From Rhodospirillales bacterium (GTDB lineage Bacteria > Pseudomonadota > Alphaproteobacteria > UBA8366 > JADFVY01): a DNA stretch of 64,000 nucleotides. Under the pieces are notes generated by a model. It had not been told where the DNA came from, made no database searches, and worked only from the letters and a program-made list of their open reading frames with translations. Positions 1,594 to 26,098 of the stretch are shown here, in pieces. A program made the translations under genes and the position numbers. The stretch covers positions 3,011,754-3,075,753 of the forward strand of contig CP070634.1 in the NCBI GenBank assembly GCA_020356105.1, given 5' to 3'. How positions within the stretch are numbered: position 1 is the stretch's first letter; each line of letters starts with the position of its first letter.

Positions 1594-2460
1594 ATGAGCG
1601 ACTACATTCTGCAGCCGGACCCCGAGGACAAGCGCCTGACGCAGCCGGTGAACGGCGTCGACCAGGACGGCAATCCGATCGAGACGCGCGTCGTCGTCGA
1701 ACGGCCGCTGACCCTGTTCCTGAACGGCCAGGAGATCGTCACCATGATGACGATCGGTGACCACCCCGGGTATCTTGCGGTCGGCTACCTGATCAACCAG
1801 AACATGTTGCGGCCGGACGACGAGATCACCGCCGTCGAGTATGAGGACGACATCCAGACGGTGGTGGTGCGCACGAAGACCCGCACCGATTTCGAGGAAA
1901 AGCTCCGGAAGAAGACGCTGACCTCGGGTTGCGCGCAGGGCACGGTGTTCGGCGACCTGATGGAGCGGTTCGACGAGGTGCGGCTGCCGGGCGATGCGAT
2001 CCTCAAGACCTCGTGGCTTTACGCCCTGACGAAGAAGATCAACACCTCTCCGAGCCTCTATCTTGCTGCGGGCGCGATCCATGGCTGCGTGCTGTGCGAG
2101 GAGGATCGCCCGCTGATCTACATGGAGGACGTCGGGCGGCATAATGCGATCGACAAGATCGCGGGATACATGGCGATGAACGGTATCGCCAGCGACGGCA
2201 AGATTTTCTATACGACCGGTCGCCTGACCTCCGAGATGGTGATCAAGACGGTCCAGATGGGTATTCCCATACTCATTTCCCGGTCGGGCTTCACCGCCTG
2301 GGGCGTCGAGCTCGCGCGCAAGGCCGGGTTGACCCTGATCGGCCGGGCGAAAGGCAAACGGTTCATCGCGCTGTCCGGCGAGGGCCGTATCGTCTATGAC
2401 GCCGATACGGACGCGCCGCGAGGGCGCGCGGCGTCGCGCCCTGCGGCGGCGGCCAGATAG
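1594..2460 (+). CDS. fdhD: formate dehydrogenase accessory sulfurtransferase FdhD
   Basis: FdhD carries sulfur from a cysteine desulfurase to the bis-MGD cofactor, placing the essential sulfido ligand in formate dehydrogenase before insertion. The 288 aa product contains the family motifs: an N-terminal 'ERPLTLFLNGQEIVTMM', a Cys at residue 113 in 'TSGCAQG', the sulfur-relay pair C165-x2-C168 in 'HGCVLC', 'EDVGRHNAIDKI' and 'TTGRLTSEMV'. An upstream in-frame start at 1558 would add 12 residues with no family similarity, so the ATG at 1594 is preferred. It is divergent from moaA (about 160 bp between starts), and its client is the FDH catalytic subunit at 6791-9559. The last 15 residues are Ala/Arg rich and probably disordered. 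Confidence 0.96.
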   Translation: MSDYILQPDPEDKRLTQPVNGVDQDGNPIETRVVVERPLTLFLNGQEIVTMMTIGDHPGYLAVGYLINQNMLRPDDEITAVEYEDDIQTVVVRTKTRTDFEEKLRKKTLTSGCAQGTVFGDLMERFDEVRLPGDAILKTSWLYALTKKINTSPSLYLAAGAIHGCVLCEEDRPLIYMEDVGRHNAIDKIAGYMAMNGIASDGKIFYTTGRLTSEMVIKTVQMGIPILISRSGFTAWGVELARKAGLTLIGRAKGKRFIALSGEGRIVYDADTDAPRGRAASRPAAAAR

Positions 2461-2677: not shown

Positions 2678-3241
2678 ATGATCGGACGCGGGTTCAGCTT
2701 TTTCGGGATGCGTGGCGCAAGCCGGGTCATGGCGAATGACGACGCCGGCGGCGCGCCGCCGCCGTTGCCGATCGTCGACGATACCGCGGCGATGATGCGG
2801 GACCTCGAAAAAGAGCGCGGGCGGGTCGCCCGGATCGGCGGTACCTACTGCCTGATTCTGATTCGGCTCGACGATAGCCAGGAAAGCGAGTTGGTGCCTC
2901 AGATCGTTGACGGGATAGGCAAGCGGTTCGCGGTCGGACTTCGCCCCTATGACTCGATCTACCGGTTCGGTCCCGAGATGTACCTGATCGGCGTTTCGCA
3001 CATCAAGGTCGAGGACACGATGGCGGTCATGGAGCGCCTGCGTACAGTGGTCTCCGGCCGCCTCCTGACGATGCAGGATGGCCGCGTCATGCCGGCCACG
3101 GTGTCGCTTGGCGGGACCATGATGGACAGCGGCGCCTCGGTCGAGGAGAATCTGGACCGGGCGGGGCGCGCCCTGTATGCGGCCGTGCAAGACGGCGGTG
3201 ACGCGGTGCGTATCTGGTCATCCGACCTGAACGCGGCGTGA
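2678..3241 (+). CDS. degenerate GGDEF-domain protein 1 (I-site kept, active site lost)
   Basis: 187 aa from the ATG at 2678, which has an AAGGA ribosome site at 2664-2668. Residues about 35-185 follow the GGDEF fold: a helix 'MMRDLEKERGRVARIGGTYCL', 'LRPYDSIYRFGPEMYLIGV' and 'TVSLGG', and the chain ends 'WSSDL'. Where an active cyclase has GGDEF this protein has GPEMY (98-102), so diguanylate cyclase activity is not expected. The product-binding I-site RxxD is present as RPYD (89-92), exactly five residues before the signature, as in I-site cyclases. The leader (1-34) is Gly/Pro/Ala rich with no membrane segment. It is the first of three similar genes between fdhD and mobA. I infer a soluble c-di-GMP receptor; ligand binding is unproven. 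Confidence 0.75.
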   Translation: MIGRGFSFFGMRGASRVMANDDAGGAPPPLPIVDDTAAMMRDLEKERGRVARIGGTYCLILIRLDDSQESELVPQIVDGIGKRFAVGLRPYDSIYRFGPEMYLIGVSHIKVEDTMAVMERLRTVVSGRLLTMQDGRVMPATVSLGGTMMDSGASVEENLDRAGRALYAAVQDGGDAVRIWSSDLNAA

Positions 3242-3288
3242 CCATCCGCGCCCTCGTCGCGGCTCGCGTTTCGGTGCAGGAGGAGATC

Positions 3289-4212
3289 ATGACTGGCAAT
3301 GGCGGCGCGCCGGGCGACGAGGCAAGATCCCGCGATATCTCCGTTTCGATCGCGGACGCTCTCGACGAGCACCAACGTTGGCTCGAGGCGTTGCGCCGCG
3401 ATTTGATCTGCCGGCTGAAACCGGATGGCGCCTTCAGCATCGAGGATGCGCACACGCAATGTCGTTTTGGCAGGTGGTTCGATCGCCACCGCCGATCCGG
3501 AATCCTCGAAGGGGATATGTTCGTGCGCTTGGACCGCGCCCACCAGGAAGTGCATGAGGCGGCACGGTACCTGGCGGGTAAGGCGGCATCAGAGGAACGG
3601 ATTCCAGCCGATGAATATGATGCCCTGATCGGTGTGTTCGAAGATTTTCGCAAGCTGGCCGCGCGCGTCGCGGAAGATTACGGGCGGCCCGAGGATGTGA
3701 AGGTTGCCGAGGACGAGGCGATCGCCGAGCTGCAAGGGCGCATGACGATGCTTGCCGAGCTCGAGCGCGAATCGGAACGGGCCGACCGCACGAACACCCC
3801 CATGTGCCTGGTGATGGTGCGCCCGAATGACTTGCTTGAGGTCGAGGCGAAATTTGGTGATCTTGGGATCGATCGTGTGGTGGCCGGCCTGGCTGCGCGG
3901 CTCTATGCGAATCTGCGTCCCTACGATGCGGTCTATCGTTATGGGCGATCGGAGTTCCTGATCTGTCTGCCGGGAACCGACGTCCCGCAGGCTTGTGCGG
4001 TGACCAAGCGCTTGAGCGAGGCCGTGGACGGCGCACCGTTCGTCTTGTCCGAATCGGTGGAGACGGGGATTTCGGCCCGGTTCGGCATTGCCCGCACCGA
4101 TGCCCGAACGACGGTCCAGCAGATTCTGGATCGCGCGTCGCGCGCCGCCAACATGGCGGGGACCGCGGCGGGCGAACGGATCATGGTCTGGTCGGCGGAA
4201 GTCGAGAACTGA
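3289..4212 (+). CDS. CZB zinc-sensing domain fused to degenerate GGDEF domain
   Basis: 307 aa from the ATG at 3289, preceded by AGGAGG-like bases at 3278-3285; an earlier GTG at 3238 overlaps the previous stop but lacks a good ribosome site. Residues about 15-110 form a CZB (chemoreceptor zinc-binding) domain with candidate ligands H28, C58, H85 and H89. That spacing (30, 27, 4) equals the H22/C52/H79/H83 site I recall for the E. coli zinc-controlled cyclase DgcZ. Residues about 150-305 are GGDEF-like: the I-site RPYD is at 210-213, but the signature is GRSEF (219-223) instead of GGDEF or GGEEF, so catalysis is doubtful. I infer a zinc-responsive c-di-GMP receptor derived from a DgcZ-like enzyme. 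It shares its layout and tail ('MVWSAE') with both neighbours. Confidence 0.8.
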   Translation: MTGNGGAPGDEARSRDISVSIADALDEHQRWLEALRRDLICRLKPDGAFSIEDAHTQCRFGRWFDRHRRSGILEGDMFVRLDRAHQEVHEAARYLAGKAASEERIPADEYDALIGVFEDFRKLAARVAEDYGRPEDVKVAEDEAIAELQGRMTMLAELERESERADRTNTPMCLVMVRPNDLLEVEAKFGDLGIDRVVAGLAARLYANLRPYDAVYRYGRSEFLICLPGTDVPQACAVTKRLSEAVDGAPFVLSESVETGISARFGIARTDARTTVQQILDRASRAANMAGTAAGERIMVWSAEVEN

Positions 4213-4398
4213 AGGTGATTCTGCCGCGGACGTTCGGACGGCGGGGTTCTTAGGCGACGAAAACCTATCCTTTACCAATTGCCGGGCACTATGCGTCGTG
4301 TTCCCGACCGCACGGTGCGGCCGTGGTAATGCCACTTCGGGCACGCCGGTGTCCTTGGAGTGGCGATGGAAGCTGGAGAGATTCAGGAGGGCGAGCCC

Positions 4399-4950
4399 AT
4401 GGGCTTATTCGGCAATCCCAAATCTTCCGTTGAGAAGAAGGCAGCGGAGTTTGATTTCGGCGAGAGAAAGGAGCTGGCGGGACCGCTGCCGGTGGTCGAG
4501 AACCTGGTCGAAACGGTTCAATGGCTCGAAAATGCGCGCCAGAAGGTGTCGAGCGGAAATGCCAGCTGCTGCCTGGTCGTCTGTGCGCCGAACTCGATCG
4601 ATGGCGTGGCCATGGAGCTGACCGTCGGGGAAATCGCCAACCGTTTCGCGCACAGCCTTCGCTCATACGATGCGATTTTTCGACACGGCCGTGACAAGCT
4701 CTTGGTGGCCCTGCCGCATGTCAAGCCGTCGGATGCACCCGCGGTTCTGCAACGGCTCAAAGCGATCATCGCGCGACTGCCGTTCAAGTTGCCGAATCAG
4801 AGCGTGGACATATCCGTTACGGTATCGCTTGGCGGCGTGATGATGGATTCGAGCCCTGTTCAGGAGCTCATCAATCGCGCCGACAAGGCGATGGAGGCGG
4901 GCCGTATCAGCGGCAACTACACCTGCATGTGGACATCCGACCTGCATTAA
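4399..4950 (+). CDS. degenerate GGDEF-domain protein 3
   Basis: 183 aa from the ATG at 4399, with CAGGAGG at 4384-4390; an in-frame start at 4360 adds 13 unlikely residues. It starts 'MGLFGNPKSS' and has a helix 'ENLVETVQWLENARQKV' before a GGDEF-like fold. The signature is GRDKL (97-101), with every catalytic position changed, while RSYD (88-91) keeps the RxxD I-site. The ending 'CMWTSDLH' matches the tails of the two upstream genes, so the three look like a local duplication. No input domain, membrane segment or signal peptide is seen. The gap to the preceding gene is 186 bp, so it may have its own promoter. Its role is unknown; c-di-GMP binding is an inference from the I-site alone. Confidence 0.72.
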   Translation: MGLFGNPKSSVEKKAAEFDFGERKELAGPLPVVENLVETVQWLENARQKVSSGNASCCLVVCAPNSIDGVAMELTVGEIANRFAHSLRSYDAIFRHGRDKLLVALPHVKPSDAPAVLQRLKAIIARLPFKLPNQSVDISVTVSLGGVMMDSSPVQELINRADKAMEAGRISGNYTCMWTSDLH

Positions 4951-5067: not shown

Positions 5068-5688
5068 ATGAACGAGCCCGTCGTCGGAGTCTTGCTGGCC
5101 GGCGGATTGTCGCGTCGCATGGGCGGTGGCGACAAGATGCTGCGCAGGATTGGCGGTGCGACGATCCTCTCGAGGGTCATCGCCAGGCTGGCGCCGCAGA
5201 CGCGCCATTTGATACTCAACGCGAATGGCGATCCAGCCCGCTTCGAGCCCTTCGGGCTGGCCGTGGTGCCCGATACTCTGGCCGGTCATGCCGGGCCTTT
5301 GGCGGGCGTGTTGACAGGAATGGAATGGGCCGCCGCAAATGCCGCCGACTGCGGGTGGGTCTTGACCGTGCCGACCGATGCGCCGTTTCTGCCGGACGAT
5401 CTTGCGGCGCGTATGCTCGCGGCCATCGACGCGCAGAACGCCGAGATGGCGTGTGCGTCGTCCGGCGGGCGCGCGCATCCCGTCTGCGGGATATGGCCGG
5501 TTAGACTGGCCGCGGATCTGCGTCAGGCGATTACAGTCGAGCAGATCCGCAAGGTCGATGTGTGGACCGCCCGATACCGGCATATCCTGGTCGATTGGCC
5601 TGTCGATCCCGTCGACCCGTTCTTCAACGCGAACAGGCCGCAAGACCTGGCGGAGGCCGAGCGTCTGCTGGATCGGAGCGGCGGTTAA
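5068..5688 (+). CDS. mobA: molybdenum cofactor guanylyltransferase MobA
   Basis: MobA transfers GMP from GTP to molybdopterin to build the guanine dinucleotide form (bis-MGD) needed by DMSO-reductase-family enzymes such as formate dehydrogenase. The 206 aa product has the nucleotide-binding signature 'LAGGLSRRMGGGDK' (residues 10-23), 'AGPLAGVLTGMEWA', 'VPTDAPFLP' (metal-binding Asp) and 'FFNANRPQDL' near the C-terminus. The length is normal for the family. It lies downstream of the three GGDEF-like genes in the same direction. Its stop codon and that of the converging membrane-protein gene share the palindrome TTAA (5685-5688), leaving no room for a terminator. Confidence 0.95.
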   Translation: MNEPVVGVLLAGGLSRRMGGGDKMLRRIGGATILSRVIARLAPQTRHLILNANGDPARFEPFGLAVVPDTLAGHAGPLAGVLTGMEWAAANAADCGWVLTVPTDAPFLPDDLAARMLAAIDAQNAEMACASSGGRAHPVCGIWPVRLAADLRQAITVEQIRKVDVWTARYRHILVDWPVDPVDPFFNANRPQDLAEAERLLDRSGG

Positions 5689-6794
5689 CGCTGGTGCGAT
5701 CCGACGAGTTCGGCAAACCGGGTGGCGTCCTCGGGATCATCGAAGATAAGCCGTCCGTCCTCGATCCGGTAGCGCCCCTGTGCCGCGATGAGCGTCTCGA
5801 GGGCCCGGCGTGTCGATCGTAGCGTCTCGCGCTCGCTCGCGGCGGCGTTTCGCGCCGCTTCCAGAAGGTCTTCGTGCGCGGCACGGAGTTCAGCGGCATA
5901 GGCGGCACGGGCTCGCCTGTCGATATCGAGCAGCCGAACGCTCAGCAACAGGTCCGAAATATCCGGGTGCGCGGACTCGACGCGCTTGAGGCGGTCCTGA
6001 AGGTCGTCGATCTGGCGGATCGAGCGCCGCAGATTGCGGGGGGTCGACAAGCGCGCGGCGTCGAGAAACGCTCCTTCGGCAGTATAAGACTGGTAGCGGG
6101 CGCGATATCGCGACATTCCATCTTCCGTCCGCCGATAGAGCTCGCGGTATATGTCGCGCATCGTAACGTAGGCTGCGACATACGGATCGGCCAGTTCGAC
6201 CGGCGCGAGGTTTCCGACGGTCCGCTGGCCGGACTGTAGCTGCAGCAACGTGTGATTCGCCGGCCCGCGCTCCTGACCCGCCCGCCAGGCCAAAGCTGCC
6301 TCGTAGACCAGGAACGCGAGCAGCCCGACAGCGACGGTCAAGGCACCGGCGATCTGTCGTCGCCGATGGAGGAAGGTCCACGCGCACGCGCCGATCAGGC
6401 CGAAAGCGATTCCCCGCGTCGTGGCGCGCAAGAGCCACTGTCCGAAACTGTCGACAGAGCCTTGCGCAACCCAAAGACCGATCCCGGCGATGCCCCCGGC
6501 GCACACGACCGACACCGCCAACAGGGCCCGGCGTTGCCGCGTGGCCGTCGCGGTCAGACGTCGCGCGAACGAGCGCTTCGCCGAACGGGAAGACGGGTCG
6601 CTCGCCTTCTCCGCCCGCTTTGGTGCGTCCGCGGCGCCCGTTCCTTTCTTTGCGTTACTCGCGGTCTTCGTGGACCGCGGACCAGAGCTTGCGCGGGCAG
6701 TCCCTTTTGCGCCGGTCGACCCAGCCGGTTTTGCCCGGTCCGCTTTGCTGTGTTGTGTTCCGCGTGTCCCGCCCACGGCTCGGGCCCGACTCAC
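5685..6794 (-). CDS. membrane protein of unknown function, translationally coupled to fdhA
   Basis: 369 aa with a GTG start whose bases overlap the stop of the FDH catalytic subunit (GTGA), so it is probably made from the same message by translational coupling. Residues 1-85 are Ala/Lys/Ser/Arg rich and look disordered. Three hydrophobic segments follow (about 91-110, 124-142, 147-167). The remaining 200 residues are charged and helical, with heptad-like stretches ('IRQIDDLQDRLKRVE', 'AAELRAAHEDLLEAARNAA'). No known catalytic motif is visible and I do not recognise the family. The coupling suggests a link to FDH, for example membrane tethering or assembly, but that is inference. It is not the small FdsD chaperone, which is much shorter. 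Confidence 0.7.
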   Translation of the reverse strand: MSRARAVGGTRGTQHSKADRAKPAGSTGAKGTARASSGPRSTKTASNAKKGTGAADAPKRAEKASDPSSRSAKRSFARRLTATATRQRRALLAVSVVCAGGIAGIGLWVAQGSVDSFGQWLLRATTRGIAFGLIGACAWTFLHRRRQIAGALTVAVGLLAFLVYEAALAWRAGQERGPANHTLLQLQSGQRTVGNLAPVELADPYVAAYVTMRDIYRELYRRTEDGMSRYRARYQSYTAEGAFLDAARLSTPRNLRRSIRQIDDLQDRLKRVESAHPDISDLLLSVRLLDIDRRARAAYAAELRAAHEDLLEAARNAAASERETLRSTRRALETLIAAQGRYRIEDGRLIFDDPEDATRFAELVGSHQR

Positions 6795-10039: not shown

Positions 10040-10411
10040 TCAGCGCCGCCTCCAGGCATCATCGATTTTCTGCAGAAGCCGGGCAAAGTCGATCGGCTTG
10101 GTGTCGAAATCGTCGCAACCGGCGGCCAGCGCCTTTTCCTTGTCAGTGCTCATCGCGTGCGCCGTCAAAGCGATGATCGGGATCGCACTGGTGGCCGCGT
10201 CAGCCTTCAGTCTGCGGGATGCCTCCCAGCCGTCGACATGCGGCAGGCTCAGGTCCATGATGATCAAATCGGGGGACTCGGCGCGCGCAACGGACATGCC
10301 CTCGACACCGTCCTGCGCCACCAGGACGGAATAACCCTTCCGCGACAACCGCCGACACAACATGTCGCGATTCATTTCGTTATCCTCAACAACCAGGATC
10401 GTCGGCATCAT
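10040..10411 (-). CDS. single-domain response regulator (CheY/DivK-like)
   Basis: 123 aa receiver domain with no output domain. The acidic pocket is E9-D10, the phosphorylation site is D53 ('IIMDLSLPHVDGW'), followed by 'ALTAHAM' (switch Thr) and 'DTKPID' (conserved Lys). The start is the ATG at 10411, one base after the kinase stop; an earlier in-frame start lies inside the kinase gene. It ends a three-gene unit with the hybrid kinase and the PhnD-like protein, so it is their likely phosphoacceptor. Without a DNA-binding domain it must act by protein contact, for example as a relay to another kinase or regulator. The sequence resembles the DivK/receiver type found C-terminal to hybrid kinases. 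Confidence 0.9.
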   Translation of the reverse strand: MMPTILVVEDNEMNRDMLCRRLSRKGYSVLVAQDGVEGMSVARAESPDLIIMDLSLPHVDGWEASRRLKADAATSAIPIIALTAHAMSTDKEKALAAGCDDFDTKPIDFARLLQKIDDAWRRR

Positions 10412-10412
10412 C

Positions 10413-13127
10413 TTATTCTCCGGCCAGTTTGGCTGTTTCAAGGACGCGGGGAGGGATCGAACTCACTACCACACGAACCATTTCGTTCCATCCGGATATG
10501 TTCCTGTCGATCACGATATCTGCCATGCCGAGCAGCTCGCCGCGGTCGGGATCGGATGGCGGATCGGCGGATACCACGACGACCGGCGCCTCGACGGGGC
10601 TCTTTCTCGCTCTTAGTGCCTGCAAGAACATCCGCGCGTCAAACTCGCGGTTCATCGGATTGAGAACGATCAGGTCCACCGTATTGTCGTCCAGCCAGGC
10701 AAGGCCATCGTCGCCGGTGACGGCTTCGGCTACCGTCCATCCAGCGGGATCGAGTGACTGCCGGAGGGTTTGTCGCGCGCCGGCATCTTCGCCGACTATC
10801 AGGACCTTGCATCCGTCGCTGCGTGGCAACTGGGCCATCATTGCACTGAACAGGCGCGTCCAATCGATGGGCCGCACCACGAAATCAGCCGCCCCGTAGC
10901 TCCTGCCGCGATCGGATTCATCGATGGTGGATGAGAGAATTACCGGTATTTTCCGGGCGACCGGATCGCTCTTCAAACGTTTGAGTACGGTCCAGCCGTC
11001 CATGTCGCGCAGCGCGATGTCGAGCAGGATCGCAAAGGGTTTTACGTCACGAGCCAATCGCAGCCCCTCGACGCCCCGGCTTGCCGTTACCGCCCGAAAT
11101 CCCCAACGCGTCAGATGCCAAGCGGTCAGTTCAAGAAACTCGACGTCGCCGTCGATCACCAGGACGACGTGACCCTTGTTGGCCAGCTTGCCGGCAATCG
11201 AGGCGTTCGCCGGCGCGGCGATAATGTCTGAGGTATCGCTGAGCAGGGGCATGCGGGCCGGCAGCCGTACGGTGAATGCCGAGCCCTCTCCCGGCGTGCT
11301 GGTGGCGGTTATGTCGCCGCCCAGCATACGCGCCATCCGCCGACTGATGGCCAGTCCAAGGCCGGTGCCGCCATATTCCCGGGTGGTCGACGAGTCGGCC
11401 TGCAGGAATTCACCGAACACCTTGTCGACCTGCTCGGCGGTCATGCCGATTCCAGTGTCCGAGACTTCGAACTCGATCCACGTGCCATCCTGTTCGAGCG
11501 CTGCCCGGACGCCGAGGTGGATCTTGCCCTCGCTGGTAAACTTGGCAGCGTTCGTCAGCAGGTTGAAGAGGATCTGACGCACCTTCAGCTGGTCCGAATA
11601 CATCGGCTGCAAGTCCGCCGCGACATCAAGCGTCAAGCGGTTGTTGCGGTCGTCGACGACGTGCTGAATCGTCGCGACGACATCATCGACCACGCTCGAC
11701 ACCGAGAAATTCTCGGGCATGATCTCCATCTTGCCGGCCTCGATCTTCGAGAGATCGAGAACGTCGTTGATCAAGCCCAGGAGGTGCTGTCCGGCGCCGT
11801 TGACTCGCCGAAGGTCACCGACCAGGTCGTCACGTCCCGCTTCGGTGGCTTCCTCCAGCAACATCTCGCTGTAGCCGATGATGGCGTTCAGCGGTGTGCG
11901 GAGTTCATGGCTCATATTGGCGAGAAACTGTGACTTCGCCCGATTGGCACGTTCGGCTTCGCGCATAGCAGTGATGAGCGCGTTCTGTGTCGTCTTGAGA
12001 CGCGTGATGTCGCGAAACAGCCAGACACTTGAATGTTCGTCGCCCGGCTGCCCGGGCAATTCCGCGCTCGATACCAAGACCGGCAGCCAGCCGCCGCTGC
12101 GGGTGCGGGCCGTTCCCTCGCGCGGCCGCGCGGTGGTGGCCGGCGCGCCCCCCTGTACCGGGGCCAGGAGAAAAGCCGATACCGGCTGGCCTAGCAATTC
12201 TCGCTCGTTGTAACCGAGCAACCGGCAGCACGCAGCGTTGACGGTTCGGATCGATCCGTCCGGTCCGACGACCAACAGACCGTCAAGCATGCTGTGAAGG
12301 ATGTTGTCGACATAATCCTTTCGGAACGTGGTCTGGCGGAGATCGCGGGCCATGGTGATAAAGGATTCAACAAGTTCGCGGATCTCCGGGCCGGTCCCGA
12401 TATCATCGGGCATTTCATAGTTGCCCTGGCCGATCTGACGGGCCAATTGCGACAGAAGGCGAATCGGCCGGCTCAACCGGTTGCCGACCACGATCGCGAG
12501 CACAAGTCCGAATCCGCCGAAGGTTATCGTGATCGCGAGAGACGTCCAAAGCCCCCTGTTCTGGCTTTCGCCGACAAGCTGGTTCTGCTCGTCGCGCAGA
12601 AGGGCTGTTTCATCGGCGATCGGCTTCAGCGACATGTTGACCATCACGCGCCCGATGATGTCTTCCGCGAGGAGTACGGGCACGCTGGCGGTTATACTTT
12701 CCTGCCGCGGTGCGTTGATGACCGCTTGCTTGGCGAAGTGCTCCGCGCGGGCGAAATGCGCATCGGTCTCGTCCGGCGACAGACCGGGTATCGCCCCGAC
12801 CTGGTATAGCGGGCCCCGAATATCGTAGACGGCGACGGCGCTGACGTCGGGCACGCCTGACAGATCATTTACAAGTTGCCGGATATGGTCGACGTCCAGG
12901 AGATAGATCTCGTCGGCGATGCTCGTGCCCAGCGCTTGGGCGAGATCCACGGCCCTGCGCTCATACTGTCGAAGCAGCGCCTCTTCCATGGATTCCAACG
13001 TGGTTTCTCGAAGCTGGACCGAGGTCATGCTGAACCCGGTCAGCAGCGCCGCCGAGAGGCTCACCACCGTGACGAGCGTAAGCCCCAGCACAGCAAGGGC
13101 GTAGCGGGCCTTGAGGGAAAGCGACAT
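10413..13127 (-). CDS. hybrid sensor histidine kinase with two receiver domains
   Basis: 904 aa inner-membrane kinase. Order: TM1 (about 8-29); periplasmic sensor region (30-185); TM2 (about 195-215); HAMP (to about 265); PAS domain ('[18 protein letters not shown]'); HisKA with phosphorylated H407 ('[16 protein letters not shown]'); HATPase ('TNAAKF', 'DTGIGM', '[10 protein letters not shown]'); and two receivers. Receiver 1 has phosphoacceptor D703 ('[12 protein letters not shown]'). Receiver 2 has Asn823 where Asp is expected ('VLNPMN') and lacks the usual Lys motif, so it cannot be phosphorylated normally. The ATG at 13127 overlaps the stop of the binding-protein gene (TGATG), which indicates coupled expression. 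The pairing with a PhnD-like protein recalls AioX-AioS, where a periplasmic protein presents the signal to the kinase. Confidence 0.93.
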
Positions 13128-14065
13128 CAATCAGAATGCTCGCGGTGCCGGCGCCAGATTGCGCGCGCCGCCTCGAGCCCGGTTCTGGCATCGCCCTCGA
13201 TTCTGTCGTACCGGGCAACTTTGTAGTACTTTTTCAGAACCGCGCGCCCTTCCGGTGATTCATGCATGTGCTCCAGCAGCGCGCTTATCCGGGCGCACAG
13301 TTCGTCATCGAGCGATCGGCGCGCCATGAACAGGGATCGAATGACCGGCTCGGTCTCGTGGAGAATGTGGAGTTCATCCTTCAGTCGGGCCGGCGCGGTG
13401 TCCGGATCTTCCCAATCGAGATTGCTTATCGCACCGGCGTCGGCCAGTCCCCGGTTGACCCAGGCGATGACATTGATTTCACCTTGCGCGAAACCGTAGC
13501 CGAGCATGTTGTCGGGCGTCGGATTGCGCGGATCGGTTAGCGCCGCCAGTTGGAGCCCGGCCTCTTCAAGTGCCGCGCGCGGCATCAGGTAACCCGACGT
13601 AGATCCGGAATCCTCGAACGCGAATTTGCCGCCGACAAGTTCGGAAAGAGCCGTCAGGCCGCTGTCCCTGCGGACGAGGATCACGGAATGATACTCGGGG
13701 GCACCCTTCTTCCATTCGCGGAGCAATGGCTTGGCCATGTTGGCGCTGATGAATTCGAGCGCAACGAACGCTGTTTCCGAGAACAGATCGATCCGACCTT
13801 CATGCAATAGGCCAAGCATCCGTGTCGGCGATTCGGCAAACACGACATCGACTCCGCTGACACCCTGATCGGCCAGTTGTTCGGCCAGATAACCAGCCAT
13901 CGCGCGCATTTGCTCCATATGCTTGTGCGGCTCGTTCGAGATCCGTCCAAGCACGAGGCGCCGCCCGGATTCGGCCATCGCAGCCGGCGCCGCGGTGGTG
14001 CCAGCCAGAACGAGCGCCACAAGCGCGCAGAGGATACGAAGAGGACCCGTGACCATGCCGCGCAT
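13127..14065 (-). CDS. PhnD/SsuA-family periplasmic binding protein
   Basis: About 312 aa with a signal peptide (hydrophobic '[12 protein letters not shown]' and cleavage near 'AAMAES'). The mature part has the PhnD-type pattern: '[28 protein letters not shown]', '[19 protein letters not shown]', '[12 protein letters not shown]', '[17 protein letters not shown]', '[16 protein letters not shown]'. This family binds phosphonates, phosphite, phosphate, arsenite (AioX) or other oxyanions. No transporter permease or ATPase is nearby; instead the gene is fused by overlap to a sensor kinase, so it probably senses rather than imports. The start is uncertain: a GTG at 14089, ATG at 14065 or ATG at 14056 are all in frame. 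The ligand cannot be told from sequence. Confidence 0.9.
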
Positions 14066-14226
14066 TCTAGCTGGCAAAGATTGCTTCACCGTAAACGACG
14101 CACCGCCTAAATTGGCGCGGGCAAGTGCCGCCGTTGCGAGGGGCGCCCGGCGTTTCAGCCTACGGGAGTGGTCCTTATCCGCGCGTTCAGGCGGCCGGCG
14201 AGCCGGGGCGGGGGGGCATGCCGCGC

Positions 14227-24787: not shown

Positions 24788-26098
24788 ATGGCGACAAGAC
24801 ACCCTGTCCTGGCTCCCCGGCATGGCTCCATCGCCGGACGGGATGGGACCGCCGGTAGAACAGTGCGGAAAGATCGCGGGACCATCGTCCGCATCCAAAT
24901 CGACGCGAGCGGAGCGATCGTCGAATGGCCGGCCGCGGCCGGTCGCATTACAGGCATCGTACCTAGGGTGGCGATCGGCCGGCAACTGGGGTCGCTGTTG
25001 ATAGACGCGGATCTGGCGACCGCGTTGGGCCAGGCCCGCGACAGACCGGTGGAGACTGTGCTTGTCTTTGACCTCGGCAAGCGGGGACGGCTGCCCGTCG
25101 AAGCGGCAATCTTCGGCGCGCCGGGTCGCGCTGGCGCCGCGGCGGGCTACGAGGTTCGGATTCCGGTTCCCGCAGAGCCGGCGAGTGCAAGGATTGGACT
25201 TGCCGATGCATCGGCCGCGGCGTATCCCGAGTTGCGACGGCTTGAGATGCCGGAGTCGGCCGCCTTGCTGATCGACGCGCAGAGGCTACGCATCGTCGAG
25301 GCGAATCGCGCGGCTGCCAGAGCGTTCGGTCGCCGGCCAAGCGAGTTGAAGGGCCGTATCCTGCCGCGAATACTCAATCTCGAACGGAACCGGGCACGCC
25401 ACGTCGATTGTGATGACGCAGCGAGCTTCGGGTATCTTCGTTTGGTGGATCGAGACGGTGCCGCCAAATTCTATGGCGCCTCTGTCGTGCCGCTACGCAA
25501 CGCCGGCCGGGATCTGGCGCTTTGCGTCCTGCATGATTTGACCACATGTCTCGACGCCCTGTCAGGTCTTTCAGCGGCCAACGAGGAGTTGTCGCGGTTG
25601 GCGCGGCATGACCACCTGACCGGCCTCTTCAACAAGGCAATGTTCCAGGACACGCTCGGCTTGGCAAATGCACGGGTGGGGCGGTCGGGCGGCCTGCTGG
25701 GTGTTCTCTACATCGATCTCGACGGCTTCAAGCCGGTCAACGACCAGTATGGCCACGATGTCGGCGATGCGTTGTTGACCGAAGTGGTGCAAAGAATGCA
25801 GTCGGGCCTGCGGGCGAGTGACGTCATGGCCCGGCTGGGCGGCGACGAGTTCGGAGCTATTCTCGAGAATCTGAGGGATCGGAACGACGCGCTGAGGGTT
25901 GCGACAAACTTGATCGACCGTCTTGCGGCCCCGTTCGAGATGGTTGGCGGCAGACGAGTCAAAGTCTCCGCAAGCATTGGCGCGGTGGTCACTGACCGCA
26001 CCGTGGAAGACGCGGCGGAACTCGTCGTACAGGCGGACCGGGCGATGTACCAGGCCAAGTCGTTGGGGCGCGGGAGGGCGGCACTGGCGCCCGCGTAA
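24788..26098 (+). CDS. diguanylate cyclase with PAS-like domain, intact GGDEF and I-site
   Basis: 436 aa soluble protein. Residues about 150-255 look like a PAS domain ('SAALLIDAQRLRIVEANRAAARAFGRRPSELKGR'), and residues about 270-430 form a GGDEF domain: 'HDHLTGLFNKAMFQDTL', 'LYIDLDGFKPVNDQYGHDVGDALL', signature GGDEF at 351-355, and 'ADRAMYQAKSLGRGRA'. The I-site RASD (342-345) lies five residues before the signature, so product inhibition is expected. It should make c-di-GMP from two GTP. The N-terminal 100 residues have no clear domain. It sits between sciP and dksA and is the only GGDEF protein of the window that looks catalytically intact. Confidence 0.9.
   Translation: MATRHPVLAPRHGSIAGRDGTAGRTVRKDRGTIVRIQIDASGAIVEWPAAAGRITGIVPRVAIGRQLGSLLIDADLATALGQARDRPVETVLVFDLGKRGRLPVEAAIFGAPGRAGAAAGYEVRIPVPAEPASARIGLADASAAAYPELRRLEMPESAALLIDAQRLRIVEANRAAARAFGRRPSELKGRILPRILNLERNRARHVDCDDAASFGYLRLVDRDGAAKFYGASVVPLRNAGRDLALCVLHDLTTCLDALSGLSAANEELSRLARHDHLTGLFNKAMFQDTLGLANARVGRSGGLLGVLYIDLDGFKPVNDQYGHDVGDALLTEVVQRMQSGLRASDVMARLGGDEFGAILENLRDRNDALRVATNLIDRLAAPFEMVGGRRVKVSASIGAVVTDRTVEDAAELVVQADRAMYQAKSLGRGRAALAPA

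Follow-up and report, generated by a model that had tools for sequence, protein, structure and literature searches.

The window, a stretch of 64,000 nucleotides that forms part of the single-contig genome of a Rhodospirillales bacterium, contains three tandem open reading frames between fdhD and mobA, all of them on the forward strand. The flanking genes were identified with Pfam as fdhD (1594..2460), which encodes the formate dehydrogenase sulfur carrier and bis-MGD chaperone (PF02634, E 5e-75), and mobA (5068..5688), which encodes the molybdenum cofactor guanylyltransferase (PF12804, E 1e-35), in agreement with the placement given in an earlier reading made without database searches (hereafter the sequence-only reading). 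Protein A (2678..3241, 187 aa) and protein C (4399..4950, 183 aa) are bare degenerate GGDEF domains preceded by short N-terminal extensions. Protein B (3289..4212) has 307 aa when counted from the ATG at 3289, with a possible alternative GTG start upstream at 3238. All three exceeded the PF00990 cut-off of 23.8 bits in profile searches (31.3 bits for A, 69.1 for B and 50.3 for C). Pfam also revealed a domain in B that is absent from the sequence-only description, a CZB domain (3370..3567; PF13682, E 7e-10) in which the motif C-x-F-G-x-W takes the form CRFGRW and the zinc ligand set of three histidines and one cysteine is present (H28, C58, H85 and H89). A receiver domain (Response_reg) was absent from A, B and C in a Pfam search at E values up to 1.

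On reading the sequences, the GGDEF signature positions were found to be occupied by GPEMY in A (2969..2983), GRSEF in B (3943..3957) and GRDKL in C (4687..4701). An RxxD motif of the kind that forms the inhibitory site (I-site) stands five residues before the signature glycine in each: RPYD in A (R89-D92; 2942..2953), RPYD in B (R210-D213; 3916..3927) and RSYD in C (R88-D91; 4660..4671), giving RPYD-SIYRF-GPEMY, RPYD-AVYRY-GRSEF and RSYD-AIFRH-GRDKL, respectively. The arginine of the secondary I-site is R120 in A (3035-3037) and R241 in B. These motifs and their positions are as the sequence-only reading had them, and the short C-terminal tails that it listed (WSSDL in A, WSAE in B and WTSDL in C) were all found. 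The tryptophan of the tail is nearly invariant among intact relatives as well, and the tail is therefore an inherited feature.

The structures of A and B were predicted with AF2 and both models have the GGDEF fold; for C the fold is assigned from sequence alone. The model of A (pLDDT 84, pTM 0.78) matches DosC, and further structure matches include c-di-GMP-bound DgcB and PleD. In the model of B (pLDDT 83.7, pTM 0.54) the mutual placement of the two domains is unsure. Its best fold match is DgcZ (4h54), a structure that the profile of B spans from end to end (E 2.5e-48).

Relatives of the window's genome were found to carry similar arrays. G001, G004, G005 and G006 share the arrangement moaA | fdhD - A - (A2) - B - C - mobA, with that of G004 spread across two contigs and that of G005 stopping at C, and in G002 the order is moaA | C' - C'' - fdhD - A - B. 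One genome of the family, G003, is without the entire locus; each of the others has four or five degenerate members. A2 is a fourth type of paralogue: genus g3 has it in tandem with the others, whereas its copies in the window's genus are dispersed (L030 and L029). These dispersed copies lie away from the array (L030 6609-7211, at about 2.02 Mb in G000, and L029 7122-7700); in them the secondary I-site arginine is replaced by S or K and RxxD is retained. In G004 an extra copy of the C type comes after fdhD where one contig ends (L027 1-746), and A is close to the end of a different contig (L024 7707-8291); the array of this genome may comprise five tandem members. No intact cyclase gene was found at the locus in the window's family.

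In nearly all other genomes of the order a single gene occupies the locus, in the arrangement fdhD - CZB-like/GGDEF - mobA, and the encoded cyclase is motif-intact (GGEEF, DxDxFK, ND..GH, GD, K and GRN). RxxD, mostly as RPYD, is present in 25 of 25 of these intact fdhD-linked cyclases. By coordinates, fdhD adjoins the orthologue of B in 28 of the 31 genomes with a full-length match, array members that lie between the two genes in the window's family being counted as adjoining; the exceptions are G023, G035 and G004, in the last of which contig ends intervene. The mobA gene adjoins in every locus of the order that was read except one, where the contig ends, and in several genomes the genes of this fdhD-X-mobA unit overlap by four bases. 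Outside the order the unit is present in two more families, represented by five genomes (G130, G333 and G410; G102 and G317), and was confirmed with Pfam for L114 and L116. The reported placement of the array between fdhD and mobA thus reflects a real and old linkage, shared with other families and orders. Loci of several alphaproteobacterial families were seen with an intact CZB-type cyclase between the two genes (L031-L038, L085-L110, L114, L116, L119, L121 and L122). When 385 genomes of the class were searched with an A/C profile, only the single CZB cyclase was matched outside the window's family; A, A2 and C therefore appear to be limited to that family, and the possibility that the array is a wider trait was rejected.

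In a tree of 72 GGDEF domains the 26 degenerate members formed one clade (support 99/94), in keeping with the small paralogous set that had been proposed. The sister group of this clade consists of the 25 intact fdhD-linked cyclases, with the 21 other GGDEF domains outside (100/100). Within the degenerate clade, family B is sister to A, A2 and C together (100/99), and the latter three have a gap in the substrate loop in common. This topology is most simply explained by a single loss of catalysis that would have come ahead of duplication.

To compare decay with retention, 42 GGDEF columns that are invariant in the 25 intact orthologues were scored in the 26 degenerate members. Residues are given by PleD numbers, the PleD sequence serving for numbering alone. 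D327, F331, K332, N335, D336, H340, G343, G369, K442 and R446 are kept in none of the 26, E370 is kept in three and E371 in four. The degenerate members thus lack both the diguanylate cyclase signature and the substrate and metal residues, which agrees with the earlier prediction that none of the three proteins should make c-di-GMP. The I-site residues R359 and D362, by contrast, are conserved in all 26, and the secondary I-site residue R390 is kept in 24, A, B and C among them. Seven columns are invariant across the degenerate members, and two of these are the I-site arginine and aspartate. All three I-site positions fall within the seven best-kept of the 42 columns, for which the probability under random choice is 35/11480 = 0.003, a figure that treats columns as exchangeable, which is not quite true. 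MAFFT alignments gave the same picture: R89, D92 and R120 of A are among 14 invariant columns in alignment A4, and R210, D213 and R241 of B are invariant in alignments A1-A3.

RxxD is itself a common motif. Among 59 other GGDEF domains from related genomes it was present in 18 of 26 canonical and 17 of 33 degenerate controls, proportions that are approximate because the alignments of the weakest GGDEF matches are rough. In the literature it is reported for 57% of cyclases, 64% of those having a secondary site (PMC4215984). The presence of RxxD in three paralogues, which are not independent of one another, is unremarkable alone; since the motif is common in the controls, the actual evidence lies in the contrast between decay and retention. 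Retention begins from common descent, but chance or common descent as the whole cause was rejected, since RxxD is common without being fixed in the controls and is kept here in 26 of 26 members beside most catalytic residues in 0 of 26. The comparison supports selection on the I-site across the family, the secondary arginine at +31 included. A lack of RxxD conservation among orthologues, which the sequence-only reading had named as grounds for rejecting its proposal, was looked for and not found. Between the window and G001, dN/dS was 0.19 for A, 0.12 for B and 0.06 for C, compared with 0.12 for fdhD, and values within the family ranged from 0.06 to 0.43, indicating purifying selection, with dS estimates that are rough and in part saturated.

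The zinc ligands of the CZB domain are complete in 6 of 6 members of the window's family, in 1 of 25 intact members of the order and in 19 of 30 CZB cyclases of other lineages, part of which came from a search that favoured C-x-F-G-x-W. The losses are reciprocal: the zinc site is whole where catalysis is gone (6/6) and incomplete where catalysis is kept (24/25). From this distribution it is likely that the ancestor carried both modules, the zinc sensor and catalysis, and that catalysis was lost in the window's family, where sensor and I-site persist, while sister families retained catalysis and lost the sensor. In the E. coli enzyme DgcZ, zinc bound at the CZB domain inhibits the cyclase and is freed when the cysteine is oxidised (PMC8262984). 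By analogy, a zinc or redox signal may still reach the dead GGDEF domain of B.

The sequences compared show that the genes share an origin, have lost the substrate and catalytic residues, retain the I-site strictly, keep the zinc site of B intact and evolve under purifying selection. The explanation that we favour, with some reserve, is that one fdhD/mobA-linked CZB-GGDEF cyclase gave rise to A, B and C, which as pseudo-diguanylate cyclases now act as I-site receptors for c-di-GMP. Catalysis would have been lost once in the window's family from the ancestor between fdhD and mobA, followed by duplication, and in A, A2 and C the CZB domain and part of the substrate loop would have been lost as well. 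The ligand would be supplied by cyclases elsewhere in the genome, where several are motif-intact and can provide it. It would dock at the I-site of each protein, probably as an intercalated c-di-GMP dimer bridging two GGDEF domains, and so drive homo- or hetero-association of A, B and C. B may add a zinc or oxidant input through its CZB domain, and the output might fall on the maturation of FdhD/MobA-dependent formate dehydrogenase or on the chemotaxis/CtrA phosphorelay, the last two steps being weaker and the output a guess from the gene neighbourhood. The receptor reading was already plausible and is strengthened by the analysis, which predicts c-di-GMP binding. A gene directly beyond the CheA/CtrA block (window 24788-26098) encodes a PAS-GGDEF protein whose GGDEF motif is intact, and this protein is a possible local source of the ligand.

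Weighing against the receptor reading are the frequency of RxxD among GGDEF domains at large, the loss of the secondary arginine from the dispersed A2 copies and the absence of the locus from G003. Folding or a different ligand could instead account for the retention of the I-site arginine and aspartate. If these residues were retained as part of the fold only, the proteins would be protein-protein scaffolds with no nucleotide ligand. The widespread occurrence of RxxD fits this proposal, as does the fact that R, D and the secondary R are invariant already in the intact sister group and that structural-looking residues (G416, A434 and A437) are retained equally. However, RxxD is absent from 8 of 26 canonical and 16 of 33 degenerate controls that still score as GGDEF, and the fold is therefore independent of the motif; furthermore, 35 of the 42 formerly invariant columns decayed more than all three I-site positions, and we regard a pure scaffold as unlikely. 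The bis-MGD cofactor, the product of MobA and cargo of FdhD, is an example of another guanine dinucleotide that the pocket might bind, which would make the proteins cofactor chaperones or sensors and not c-di-GMP receptors. FdhD co-purifies with bis-MGD and has been crystallised with GDP (PMC6239281), and the fdhD-X-mobA linkage is old and tight, down to the four-base overlaps. Bis-MGD is much bulkier, however, and the intact orthologues at the locus keep every cyclase residue together with the same I-site, so that c-di-GMP is the simpler ligand and binding of bis-MGD appears very improbable.

The set might also have no output of its own and instead hold active cyclases inactive by pairing with them at the I-site or the GGDEF interface. 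GGDEF domains function as dimers that c-di-GMP bridges via primary and secondary I-sites (PMC4215984), and A, B and C retain both fold and I-site; yet the family's locus offers no intact cyclase as a partner and the active-site surfaces where two cyclase domains meet have decayed, which leaves an inhibitory pairing a degree less probable than a scaffold. That the genes are functionless, decaying relics of a duplicated cyclase scarcely deserves credence. The catalytic residues are indeed gone, A evolves fast in genus g3 (dN/dS 0.32-0.43), and A of G005 has a stop near its end, but dN/dS between the window and G001 is 0.06-0.19 for all three genes, and gene order and open frames are kept across genera. 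Relic genes were thus largely refuted by the selection data, with dN/dS well below 1.

Two neighbourhoods may be served by the putative receptors. On the side of formate dehydrogenase maturation are fdhD, mobA, moaA and the genes for FDH alpha and a NuoE/F-like subunit. Between mobA and the FDH alpha gene lies a protein of 369 aa that is probably membrane-bound and has no Pfam match (window 5685-6794), with a similar gene at the same place in relatives. A hybrid histidine kinase, a CheY-like receiver and a phosphonate-type binding protein by the formate dehydrogenase genes (window 10040-14089) possibly constitute one sensing unit, and in G001 three small proteins in a row, lipoprotein-like and OmpA-like at their C-termini, occur just before moaA (L022 5760-7755). 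On the other side is the CheA/CtrA block, which the sequence-only reading had placed at 12 kb; chpT begins about 11.4 kb and ctrA about 17.6 kb past C. The proximity that it had pointed to is shared by three families of the order (f1, f2 and f3), where the chpT-cheA-ctrA block is about 2-18 kb from the locus; in the f4 loci that were read no such block turned up. The formate dehydrogenase side is favoured as the output because the fdhD/mobA linkage is wider and tighter, with overlaps of four bases. A literature search for a connection between c-di-GMP and fdhD gave incidental co-occurrences only, and no description of the locus was found in the papers searched. The locus suggests that c-di-GMP is connected with how molybdenum-dependent formate dehydrogenases mature, a link that appears to be undescribed. 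On a bolder proposal, which we think is doubtful, fdhD-X-mobA would be a module general to alphaproteobacteria through which c-di-GMP, in some lineages together with zinc or oxidants, governs the maturation of formate dehydrogenase; in one family the cyclase would have become a set of dead receptors, left with the I-site only, that bind c-di-GMP and act directly on FdhD or MobA, and in sister families the cyclase would have persisted without the zinc sensor.

Several known systems may be helpful in comparison. PopA, a c-di-GMP receptor of Caulobacter, resembles the set in its degenerate A-site, intact RxxD, alphaproteobacterial origin and nearby CtrA-pathway genes. It differs in that A, B and C are without receiver domains, descend from an fdhD-linked CZB cyclase and occur in three or four tandem copies. 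Membership of the PopA type was rejected, as A, B and C have no tandem receiver domains before the GGDEF domain. The likeness to PopA drawn in the sequence-only reading is functional only, because A, B and C lack a receiver domain; it holds for the degenerate site with RxxD, the set is no relative of PopA, and no support emerged for a part in CtrA turnover or in protease delivery. In SgmT of Myxococcus the I-site is formed by R763, D766 and R794, and the substitution R763A abolished c-di-GMP capture by the GGDEF domain (PMC3509222). SgmT shares the degenerate A-site, RxxD and a secondary arginine at exactly +31, the spacing R, D(+3), R(+31) being identical (PMC3509222), but it is a GAF-kinase-receiver-GGDEF fusion, whereas A and C are bare domains. 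DgcZ (YdeH), a CZB-GGDEF diguanylate cyclase, has the same two-domain architecture as B over its full length and the same zinc ligands, three histidines and one cysteine; B differs in being without the catalytic residues, A and C lack the CZB domain, and the fdhD/mobA gene context is distinct. The fdhD-linked CZB-GGDEF cyclases of the order are direct orthologues at the same locus with the same RPYD and the same C-terminal W, and they differ in having motif-intact catalysis, incomplete zinc ligands in 24 of 25 and a single copy. Together these orthologues constitute a natural experiment on one cyclase at one locus, in which the active site was lost in one lineage, the sensor site was lost in another and the c-di-GMP docking site was fixed in both, and such orthologous pairs make the idea that a dead GGDEF domain persists as a receptor directly testable. 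A degenerate GGDEF domain with an I-site as a receptor is of a known kind; the putative receptor array at a conserved fdhD-mobA locus appears to be new.
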